The position numbers and the translations under genes were made by a program. From Bacillus marasmi (GTDB lineage: Bacteria; Bacillota; Bacilli; Bacillales; Cytobacillaceae): a stretch of DNA of 64,000 bases. Location: the NCBI RefSeq assembly GCF_902168435.1, contig NZ_LR656170.1, positions 100,927-164,926 on the forward strand, written 5' to 3'. Shown here piece after piece: positions 2,379-44,765 of this stretch. Each line of letters begins with the position of its first letter. Positions within the stretch are counted from its first letter, which is position 1. Under the pieces are notes generated by a model. It had not been told where the DNA came from. It saw only the letters and a list, made by a program, of their open reading frames with translations, and ran no database searches.

Positions 2379-3377
<999 letters not shown>

Positions 3378-5349: not shown

Positions 5350-5829
5350 AAAACGGGCACGTATACGGGCTCTATGTGACCAAACCGAAGTGCCAAACCA
5401 TAAAACGGGCACGTATACGGACTCTATGTGACCAAACCGATGCACAAAACCCAAAAACGGGCACGTATACGGGCTCTATGTGACCAAACCGATACTCAAA
5501 ACCCAAAAACGGGCACGTATACGAGCTCTTTGTGACCAAACCGATACGCAAAACCCAAAAACGGGCACGTATACGGGCTCTATGTGACCAAACCTATGCG
5601 CAAAACCAAAAAACGGGCACGTATTCGAGCTCTATGTGACCAAATCGAAGCGCAAAACCAAAAAACGGGCACGTATTCGAGCTCTATGTGCCCAAATCGA
5701 AGCACGAAACCCAAAAACGGGCACGTATACGGGCTCTATGTGACCAAACCGATGCGCAAAACCAAAAAACAGGCACGTATTCGAGCTCTATGTGACCAAA
5801 TCGAAGCGCCCTACCAAAAAACGGGCACA
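5350..5829. repeat. Tandem array of 52-bp repeats (about 9 copies)
   Basis: The block AAAACGGGCACGTATACGGG starts at 5350, 5402, 5454, 5506, 5558, 5610, 5662, 5714, 5766 and (partial) 5818, exactly 52 bases apart. Each unit continues with GCTCTATGTGACCAAACCGA. Copies differ by a few substitutions but not in length. The whole unit is repeated, so there are no CRISPR-type spacers. Because 52 is not a multiple of three, open frames across the array are accidental. Upstream (4937-5340) is AT-rich, with TGCATATAT recurring near 5109, 5140 and 5160, and no convincing gene. Confidence 0.93.
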
Positions 5830-5840
5830 TAAACGAGTAA

Positions 5841-32525: not shown

Positions 32526-32969
32526 ATGAAGAAATACCTTTTCACAGTCCTATTAGGCGCCATTGCAATGATCCTATTATCTGGCTGTGGTTCTAAAGAA
32601 GAATTAGCATTAGACTCAAAACACTTGGAACTGCCTGATTATGTAACAAGCGCTAAGGCAGAAGTCAAAGAGGCATATATTATGGCAGCTCAATATCCAC
32701 AAGCACTAGCTTCTGTACCATGCTATTGTGGCTGTTATGAACAGGATGGACACATCAGCAACCTTGACTGTTTCGTTGATGGAATGGACAAGAATAATGC
32801 CGTTACTGGCTGGGACACAATGGGGATAGCCTGAGACATTTGCGTAGTGATCGCCCGTGAGGCGACTGAAATGTATCAAGACGGTAAAGACCTTAAGGAA
32901 ATCAATAAAACCATTACGAAAAAATACGAATCATACGGTACACCAACCCCAACTCCAATTCCTGAGTAA
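32526..32969 (+). CDS. Putative selenoprotein: PCYCGC-motif lipoprotein with in-frame UGA at codon 103
   Basis: Frame runs from ATG 32526 to TAA 32967-32969 (147 codons) if TGA 32832-32834 is read as an amino acid. The N-terminus is a lipoprotein signal (lipobox LLSGCG). The family motif PCYCGC is near residue 65, followed by DCF and W-D. After the TGA the same frame continues DICVVIAREATEMYQDG, the C-terminus expected for PCYCGC proteins, where relatives I recall have C-x-V-C. The TGA thus replaces the first Cys of C-x-x-C, giving U-D-I-C. A stem-loop stands 21 bases downstream. A nonsense mutation is the alternative, but the conserved tail is intact. GGAGG precedes the start. Confidence 0.8.
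32836..32874 (+). other. Candidate bacterial SECIS element
   Basis: Directly after the TGA, ACATTT (32836-32841) pairs with AAATGT (32869-32874), AGT with ACT, and CGCC (32852-32855) with GGCG (32861-32864), leaving the loop CGTGA. The loop begins 21 bases after the TGA, inside the 16-37 range described for bacterial SECIS, with G in its first two bases. SelB would bind it during decoding. Confidence 0.7.
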
Positions 32970-43771: not shown

Positions 43772-43808
43772 ACCGGGTTTCACTCAAATACATCGAGCAA
43801 AATCCGGC
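43772..43808 (-). terminator. Terminator after the TlpA-like selenoprotein gene
   Basis: ACCGG-GTTT-CTC pairs with GAG-AAAT-CCGG; minus strand continues TTTTTTTTAAATAC. Confidence 0.72.
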
Positions 43809-43821
43809 AGTCATTTATTTC

Positions 43822-44316
43822 TTATTTAGCAACCTGTTCTGCAGCAAAGGAAATAATTCCTTCTGCTTCATTTCCGAATGGATCGACGACTTCGGAACTT
43901 AGTACATTACCAGCTTTATCAAGGACTGCAAAGCCACGCAATGATTTTGGTGCACTCTTATCCACCATTTCCGCTTTTCTAATTAAATCTAAATCTTCAT
44001 CAGATACGAGCGGATAATCGAGTCCAAGCTCTTCCTTTAATTTTTTATGATCCTTTACGGATGAAACACTGACAGCGTAAATATTTCCAGGGAATTCTTT
44101 GAAAAGTTCCTTTTTATTTTGCAGCTCGACCAGCTGCGATTTACAGTAGTCTCAGGTGTTTCCAGTAAAGAAGAAAACTAACGCCGGCTCGTCCATGTTT
44201 TCGAATGTGACATCTTTGCCTTGGTCATCTTGAAGTGTGATTGGGCCATCATTACCACAACCAGTTATGAATAAACCAATCATAATTAAAAGCACAATCA
44301 TTATGTATTTACGCAT
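43822..44316 (-). CDS. Putative selenoprotein: TlpA/redoxin-like lipoprotein with in-frame UGA at codon 55
   Basis: Frame from ATG 44316 to TAA 43824-43822 (164 codons) if TGA 44154-44152 is decoded. The signal peptide ends FITGCG (lipobox), then a thioredoxin-fold reads ALVFFFTGNT-[TGA]-DYCKSQLVELQ. The family motif here is C-x-x-C, so the TGA replaces the peroxidatic/attacking Cys and gives U-D-Y-C. The fold continues to the end (IYAVSVSSVKDHKKL, SLRGFAVLDKAGNV). A perfect stem-loop with GGTCG loop stands 20 bases downstream. AAGGAGG precedes the start. An ordinary gene-finder would miss it, because neither half is long enough. A nonsense mutation is unlikely given the intact second half. 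Confidence 0.82.
44121..44137 (-). other. Candidate bacterial SECIS element
   Basis: On the minus strand GCAGCT-GGTCG-AGCTGC is a perfect 6-bp stem with a five-base loop starting GG. The loop begins 20 bases after the TGA. The GGUC loop start is like that of the E. coli fdhF SECIS as I remember it. Both position and loop agree with SelB recognition. Confidence 0.75.
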
Positions 44317-44450
44317 TTTCTTCCTCCTTATATATACTCCTATTTAGTATAGGGTTTGCGTACAGGGTATTTTTATGTAATTTCCGAAAGTTATGTTGCA
44401 ATATAATTCCCTTCATTATTTTGTAATAAATAATTTGGGTGTCAAGCATG

Positions 44451-44498
44451 TTTTTTCACTTATAATTAACCTACGGAGGTTGATTATAAGTGAAAAAA
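44451..44498 (+). promoter_or_regulatory. Long hairpin burying RBS and start codon
   Basis: A 21-base arm (44451-44471, TTTTTTCACTTATAATTAAC plus C) is complementary, with one mismatch, to 44478-44498. The loop TACGGA and the first two bases of the right arm contain the GGAGG, and the GTG start (44490) is inside the stem. If formed in the mRNA it would shut off translation of the 91-residue protein. Confidence 0.75.
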
Positions 44499-44765
44499 AT
44501 CATTATTTCGATATTATTTGTCTCGACCTTATTTGGATTGGGTGGAGCAGTTTTGGCAAATACAATAGATTTAGAAAAAAGAGTACAAATTGAAACAAAT
44601 GTTGCTCAAATGGTCGAAAGTTGCAAGGCACTTATGGGATTTGAAACTAAAAATGGGGAAGCTTCCAGAAAAACCTGTAATATGGATATGGCAGAAACAA
44701 ATCAGCAAATTTTAAATCAAATAGATCCATGTCTGACTGAGAGTCAAGAAAATGTCATTGATTAA
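44490..44765 (+). CDS. Small secreted protein, 91 aa, unknown
   Basis: GTG start, GGAGG ten bases upstream. A signal peptide is clear (KKIIISILFVSTLFGLGGAVLA, cut after VLA-N), leaving about 68 residues with three cysteines (ESCKAL, KTCNMD, DPCLTE). No family is recognised. It is followed by its own terminator and lies between the redoxin-type selenoprotein gene (opposite strand) and a CDF transporter gene. Regulation by the leader hairpin is likely. Confidence 0.68.
   Translation: MKKIIISILFVSTLFGLGGAVLANTIDLEKRVQIETNVAQMVESCKALMGFETKNGEASRKTCNMDMAETNQQILNQIDPCLTESQENVID

Follow-up and report, generated by a model that had tools for sequence, protein, structure and literature searches.

The stretch analysed here, called the window below, is 64,000 nucleotides of Bacillus marasmi DNA (assembly GCF_902168435.1, contig NZ_LR656170.1), and all coordinates are positions in it. 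On its minus strand lies the coding sequence of a lipoprotein of the peroxiredoxin fold (44316..43822, 164 aa), identified by its match to PF00578 and by its homologues. An in-frame UGA codon lies within this gene, which very probably reads the internal stop as selenocysteine (Sec), as judged from the comparisons described below. The ATG start (44316-44314) is preceded by the Shine-Dalgarno sequence AAGGAGG (44323..44329), and the reading frame closes with TAA (43824-43822). The first codons (44257..44316) specify a signal peptide with the lipobox ITGC, in which Cys20 is the predicted lipidation site. The UGA, codon 55 (44152..44154), is the only one in frame; homologue conservation indicates that it is read as Sec (U55), in the context LVFFFTGNT-U-DYC, and the standard reading ends at residue 54. 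Cys58 (44143..44145), which would pair with U55, occupies the aligned position of the peroxidatic Cys in AhpC and other peroxiredoxins, and Arg127 (43936..43938) aligns with the conserved peroxiredoxin Arg of the LRG..ID.G motif. An earlier note on this DNA had described a full 164-residue lipoprotein on read-through of the TGA, with the active site U-D-Y-C in the context FFTGNT and with start, lipobox and C-terminus intact, and all of this can be seen in the sequence.

Conservation of the UGA codon among relatives

The read-through protein was compared with its own and 60 near genomes at E ≤ 6e-16. Twenty matches were obtained, the window's own included, each with one TGA, which a check of the codons placed in the UxxC motif. 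At the level of the family (193 genomes with the window's own, E ≤ 1e-10), 126 genomes matched. All 102 genomes with a strong match (best E < 1e-40) carry a TGA inside it; the remaining 24 gave weak matches (best E 2.5e-12 to 9.9e-11), with no stop inside among the matches listed. In 397 sampled genomes of the order (E ≤ 1e-14) there were 81 matches: 77 with TGA, three without it (G059, G258 and G291, E about 8e-15) and one fragment (G331). The TGA-less match in G059 (locus L036) proved to be of AhpC type, with the U column occupied by Thr. Among the order matches with E between 3.8e-25 and 5.5e-16, TGA was present in 17 of 18, the eighteenth being the fragment in G331. Two of 398 genomes in a sample of the phylum matched at E ≤ 1e-14, both from the window's own family, and a plasmid search matched two records, both distant peroxiredoxins.

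A blind scan of named species genomes was performed with peptide patterns taken downstream of codon 55, which favour neither Sec nor Cys. It gave 68 loci, all with TGA at the codon-55 column and all running on past it. The closest, at 93% in the segment that follows U, is in Bacillus sp. DNRA2; the others include Mesobacillus, Neobacillus, Cytobacillus, Halalkalibacter and Alkalihalophilus, and three distant loci lie in metagenome-assembled genomes outside Bacillota. Fetched loci were also scored with a profile in which codon 55 was masked. Above 150 bits there were 143 loci (103 distinct, including the window gene), all of which have TGA at exactly the codon-55 column and none of which has Cys there; the best locus below this group is an AhpC-type protein with 56.8 bits. 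Twenty more loci, 17 from a distant subfamily D and three of types B and C, have TGA in the same UxxC place; they were preselected from order matches already showing TGA, so that their 20 of 20 serves to verify position and hairpin and adds no independent count.

The homologues run on past the UGA, whereas homologues ending there were what the earlier note had named as evidence against its proposal. The relatives that read this codon look like a real family of selenium proteins. The same note had regarded the UGA as an exchange of exactly the catalytic Cys. This is not supported, since no Cys orthologue was found at the thresholds used in the family, order, phylum and blind-scan searches, and the residue that aligns with U55 in ordinary peroxiredoxins is Thr or Ser. 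For these two reasons the family appears to be a Sec family throughout the genomes seen, rather than the product of a recent Cys-to-Sec swap.

Some of these loci deserve mention for other reasons. One copy (G021:C1:1666991-1667486) is split over two frames just before the active site, by a frameshift or an assembly error. Two redoxin copies occur per genome in three cases, types A and B together in G022 and G031 and two of type A in G004. Typical Mesobacillus-like and Cytobacillus-like copies stand in two records whose titles, Chryseobacterium sp. ISL-80 and Pseudomonas sp. ISL-84, are probably wrong.

Selenocysteine machinery and the hairpin after the UGA

Since the earlier note had named the lack of selenocysteine machinery as evidence against its proposal, the sel genes were sought in the window's assembly (4.64 Mb, 46 contigs), and all were present. 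SelB scored 361.5 bits against a cut-off of 242, SelA 562 bits and SelD 392.5 bits, the last with an in-frame TGA of its own and adjoining selA on one contig (C33); a tRNA-Sec with anticodon UCA scored 62.2 bits. In the order sample, all 77 genomes that carry the TGA gene have full SelB, versus 102 of 320 others (Fisher p 2e-32, not corrected for relatedness), and within the family full-length SelB was found in 100 of the 102 strong-hit genomes. SelB is present in 179 of the 397 order genomes altogether, and 102 of these 179 have no TGA-bearing redoxin gene at E ≤ 1e-14; other selenoproteins must therefore keep the Sec trait there.

Downstream of the UGA lies a perfect hairpin (44121..44137) with a 6-bp stem, GCAGCU/AGCUGC, and a 5-nt loop, GGUCG. 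Its stem and GG-starting loop are as the earlier note had given them. The distance of 20 bases from the UGA stated there holds for the apical loop and not for the stem, which begins after 14 nt. The free-energy prediction proposed with it also came out in favour: the 49 nt after the UGA fold into exactly this hairpin (−10.4 kcal/mol, z −2.58), and one of 200 dinucleotide shuffles folds as well. In the model of the bacterial selenocysteine insertion sequence (bSECIS) given in PMC13188914, the upper stem has 4-16 bp and the loop 3-9 nt with G in the first two loop positions, the loop lies 16-37 nt after the UGA, and the minimum free energy is −7.5 kcal/mol or lower. The window hairpin falls inside each of these ranges, and the UGA is flanked on both sides by conserved coding sequence, as is asked of a bSECIS gene.

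The hairpin was then followed through the relatives. None of the 126 pair cells in the first 21 sequences departs from standard pairing, and pair 27-37 is GC in 11, AU in nine and GU in one. Across 103 distinct genes the third base of the Gln61 codon and the first base of the Leu65 codon, both synonymous positions, covary (G-C 55, A-U 43, G-U 5, A-C 0), so that Gln CAG/CAA is paired with Leu CTG/TTG. Leu65 is YTG in all 103, versus 247 of 996 Leu codons further downstream in the genes, and the codon preceding it ends in AG in 102 and is GGG in one. On the protein tree the two covarying bases change 14 and 13 times and their joint state 15 times; in eight independent pairs on starred branches a mean of 7.0 changed in the same direction and none in the opposite one. 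Subfamily D forms the outer pair via different codons (U-A 12, C-G 3, unpaired 2; n=17). When 123 distinct genes are compared, all keep the inner five pairs intact and 116 have a standard outermost pair; G in the first two loop positions, and G at loop position 2 in particular, is found in 123 of 123. From these patterns, the hairpin appears to have been kept by compensatory substitutions.

The machinery, the homologues that continue past the UGA and the compensatory changes in the hairpin strongly support the Sec reading that the earlier note had put forward, and SelB-dependent decoding of the UGA can be proposed with high confidence. Several observations weigh on the other side. No Cys orthologue that could serve as the usual control was found in the genomes searched. 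The outermost pair of the hairpin is broken in 5 of 103 and 7 of 123 genes, the hairpins folded as bare 17-nt pieces have little stability, with 56 of 123 attaining −7.5 kcal/mol, and of the six 49-nt folds computed three are little better than their shuffles (z −0.1 to −1). Two strong-hit family genomes, G064 and G179 (530 and 720 contigs), show no full-length SelB; a looser search of both gave nothing above the SelB cut-off, and their weaker SelB matches are of the kind also given by SelB-less control genomes.

Two other accounts of the UGA bear on this point. The TGA might be a nonsense mutation or a sequencing error in an ordinary Cys redoxin, leaving a dead or truncated lipoprotein; the stop after residue 54 would agree with this, and no minus-strand open reading frame (ORF) of at least 60 aa is listed inside 43822-44316. 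However, this account is refuted by the conservation of the TGA at the same codon, without Cys, in the masked-profile and blind-scan loci alike. In addition, the protein downstream of the UGA is itself conserved (C58, Q61, D106, R127 and G128 are invariant in alignments of 20 and 54 rows, as is Cys20, and a simple lipobox pattern is present in 56 of 64 relatives), and in the order sample the gene occurs only together with full SelB; a broken gene is thus extremely improbable. Hardly any weight can be given either to a UGA read without Sec, by near-cognate Trp suppression or a change of the genetic code: nothing specific speaks for it, TGA is the terminal stop in two relatives (L029 and L049), and the covarying hairpin and the link to SelB would have no meaning under it.

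Fold, family and proposed chemistry

TlpA, ResA and StoA are extracytoplasmic proteins of thioredoxin-like fold whose redox pair is spaced by two residues, as in the window protein, and the earlier note had called the protein TlpA-like. Comparisons of profile and of structure indicate peroxiredoxins instead. PF00578 scores 72.4 bits on the window protein (gathering score 26), the AlphaFold2 (AF2) model has a mean confidence (pLDDT) of 90.7, and the top Foldseek and VIA matches are peroxiredoxins, PrxQ, AhpE and AhpC being the nearest relatives by fold and profile. ResA or TlpA was not among the 50 structural matches listed. A filing under TlpA/ResA was rejected, the NCBIfam ResA model NF002854 giving 23.3 bits against a cut-off of 170 and the best PDB relatives among the matches listed being peroxiredoxins.

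In the NCBIfam scan no model reached its own cut-off on the window protein, and the same held for three relatives scanned against listed cut-offs, one of type C and two of type D. Two models resemble it in the redoxin fold, namely NF053656, 'TUGYCR motif thioredoxin fold (seleno)protein', which is also of UxxC type by name (20.4 vs 100 bits), and NF040769, 'SelL-related redox protein' (26.1 vs 120 bits); the window protein is a member of neither. With no model at cut-off for the proteins scanned, standard annotation probably misses or truncates the gene.

Table 1 of PMC13188914 has Prx-like thiol:disulfide oxidoreductases (PF00578, UxxC/UxxU), a redoxin family UxxC (PF08534) and other thioredoxin-fold selenoproteins. 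The window protein shares PF00578, a single Sec in UxxC and an in-gene bSECIS with the Prx-like UxxC selenoproteins; set beside their description in Table 1, it differs as a Bacillales membrane lipoprotein apparently without Cys forms. A 2006 survey, PMC1794560, gives three selenoproteins in three families for Bacillales. On the basis of these Table 1 types and this count, we regard the family as a putative subfamily, new and apparently Sec-only, within the Prx-like UxxC selenoproteins already known. Bacillales, Bacilli and lipoprotein are absent as words from the main text of the 2026 catalogue (PMC13188914), and no paper on a Bacillales lipoprotein selenoprotein family was found in the open-licence PMC literature; the family is apparently uncatalogued. 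Within the limits of these literature searches, three features are new: a distribution that spans the order and is apparently Sec-only, the lipoprotein nature of the product, and the ctaG-sco neighbourhood described below. With SelB in 179 and the gene in 77 of the 397 order genomes, the gene is a candidate explanation for the persistence of the Sec trait in these spore-formers.

Other redoxins with an in-frame TGA were met beside the family. Two of them, from two further genomes, have the TGA in RGxWUPxC motifs (RGAWUPVC and RGTWUPNC); these, L054 (plus strand, TGA near 1574) and L055 (minus strand, TGA near 1501 of the reverse strand), are possibly separate Prx-like selenoproteins. Metagenome-assembled genomes titled Desulfobacterales, Chloroflexi and Latescibacterota (L172, L179 and L184) hold redoxins with SWUGYCKSQLVELQ or SWUGFCKSQLVELQ and a long C-terminal extension; the two of them scanned, L172 and L184, are under every NCBIfam cut-off listed.

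Taken together, we hold with high confidence that the gene encodes a selenoprotein, made by decoding of UGA55, which would be an exported lipoprotein of the peroxiredoxin fold with thiol-disulfide (selenol) chemistry at U55-C58. The ribosome would decode UGA55 as Sec with SelB, tRNA-Sec and the in-gene bSECIS just downstream, and the product would be exported, lipidated at Cys20 and anchored on the outer face of the membrane. In its peroxiredoxin fold the Thr of TxxC would have become Sec (UxxC). The U55 selenolate may then attack an oxidised partner (a disulfide, a sulfenic acid or a peroxide), C58 may resolve the product as a U55-C58 selenenylsulfide, and re-reduction may come from a thiol-electron conduit of the DsbD/CcdA type in the membrane or from another thioredoxin-fold protein.

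The protein might instead act as an extracytoplasmic selenium peroxidase of PrxQ/AhpE type, in which Sec or Cys58 meets the peroxide. The fold and the PF00578 score agree with this, and the retained Cys at the peroxidatic position together with the Prx-like Arg127 leaves peroxidase activity possible, which counts against a purely thiol-disulfide role. However, compared with AhpE, PrxQ (BCP) and AhpC the protein is an exported lipoprotein in which the classical PxxxTxxC motif has been lost: the window has TGNTUDYC, and the profile alignment puts Thr51 at the position of the Pro and U55 at that of the Thr. In addition, UxxC is given for many thiol-oxidoreductase-like selenoproteins in Table 1 of PMC13188914. 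Because neither the canonical Pro nor the canonical Thr is retained, thiol-disulfide (selenol) exchange seems more likely than classical peroxidase action, and the peroxidase is a tentative alternative.

Neighbouring genes and further candidates

The flanks of the relative loci (about 1.5-3 kb) were inspected, with ctaG and sco being sought by tblastn at E 1e-15; the two names are those that we take to fit these genes from their sequences. In type C, from alkaliphilic Bacillaceae, the seleno-redoxin gene lies directly downstream of ctaG and sco and shares their strand. Both are found at 16 of 17 type-C loci and at L203 and L204. Within the type-C count L025 and L156 probably represent one gene, and L180, the only locus at which the two genes were not both found, carries hardly any sequence upstream. 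Between the end of the sco match and the UGA there are 194-324 nt in 17 of 18 loci and 818 nt in L203. In Alkalihalophilus pseudofirmus OF4 (L183) the order is ctaG (1127-2044), sco (2063-2653) and redoxin (2779-3309). Genes that we presume from their sequences to be argC/argJ-like lie downstream of the seleno-redoxin at type-C loci and at L203 and L204.

As the type-C gene follows ctaG and sco, the protein might be a dedicated thiol reductase for assembly of the copper sites of cytochrome c oxidase, a partner of Sco/CtaG that reduces cysteines of Sco or CuA outside the cell. Against this, neither ctaG nor sco was found within the flanks in subfamilies A and B (126 loci) or in D (17 loci), and the window gene seems to form a separate unit, a terminator lying between it and czcD. 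Such a role is a tentative alternative, and the ctaG-sco context is a functional lead only, possibly a tie to respiration in some species. A wider proposal joins the two parts: order-wide, Sec-obligate exported lipoproteins of the peroxiredoxin fold with Sec at the peroxiredoxin Thr, which at least in alkaliphilic Bacillaceae would serve as the Sco/CtaG-partnered thiol reductase in this assembly. We consider it rather unlikely as it stands; if true, it would directly link selenium with aerobic respiration in Gram-positive bacteria. The gene offers a compact, covarying in-gene SECIS, and the ctaG-sco neighbourhood makes its function testable.

Behind the window gene come, in this order, a strong terminator hairpin, a cation-efflux (czcD-like) gene and a membrane protein with HMA and DsbD_2 matches in Pfam; that this protein is the electron conduit for the redoxin is speculative. 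The probable intrinsic terminator (43772..43808, minus strand), a hairpin followed by a T-run, folds with −18.3 kcal/mol (z −5.63, none of 200 shuffles being as good); a separate terminator pattern scan of the window did not list it. A czcD-like gene is near the redoxin in the window's genome and in three relatives of the genus (seven type-A loci, some of them duplicates). A functional linkage with czcD was rejected, because it is upstream in one locus and downstream in others and in the window lies beyond the terminator. A divergent ORF (44490-44765, plus strand) encodes an exported-looking product of 91 aa with no Pfam match; it is 85% identical in Bacillus sp. DNRA2, where it stands beside the same redoxin gene. 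No match was obtained in an Rfam scan of the whole window at gathering thresholds, and a promoter scan gave four sites versus 3.3 expected, an uninformative result.

The window holds a second probable selenoprotein, a PCYCGC-motif lipoprotein (32526-32969, plus strand) with a TGA at 32832-32834 in the context AUDIC; PF13798 scores 105.5 bits on it (cut-off 25), and NF041379 (CYCXC) 73.7, under its cut-off of 90. A further ORF (5428-5832, plus strand) consists of near-identical repeats, KPM.KT.KRARIRALCDQ, and is perhaps translated DNA repeats and no gene.
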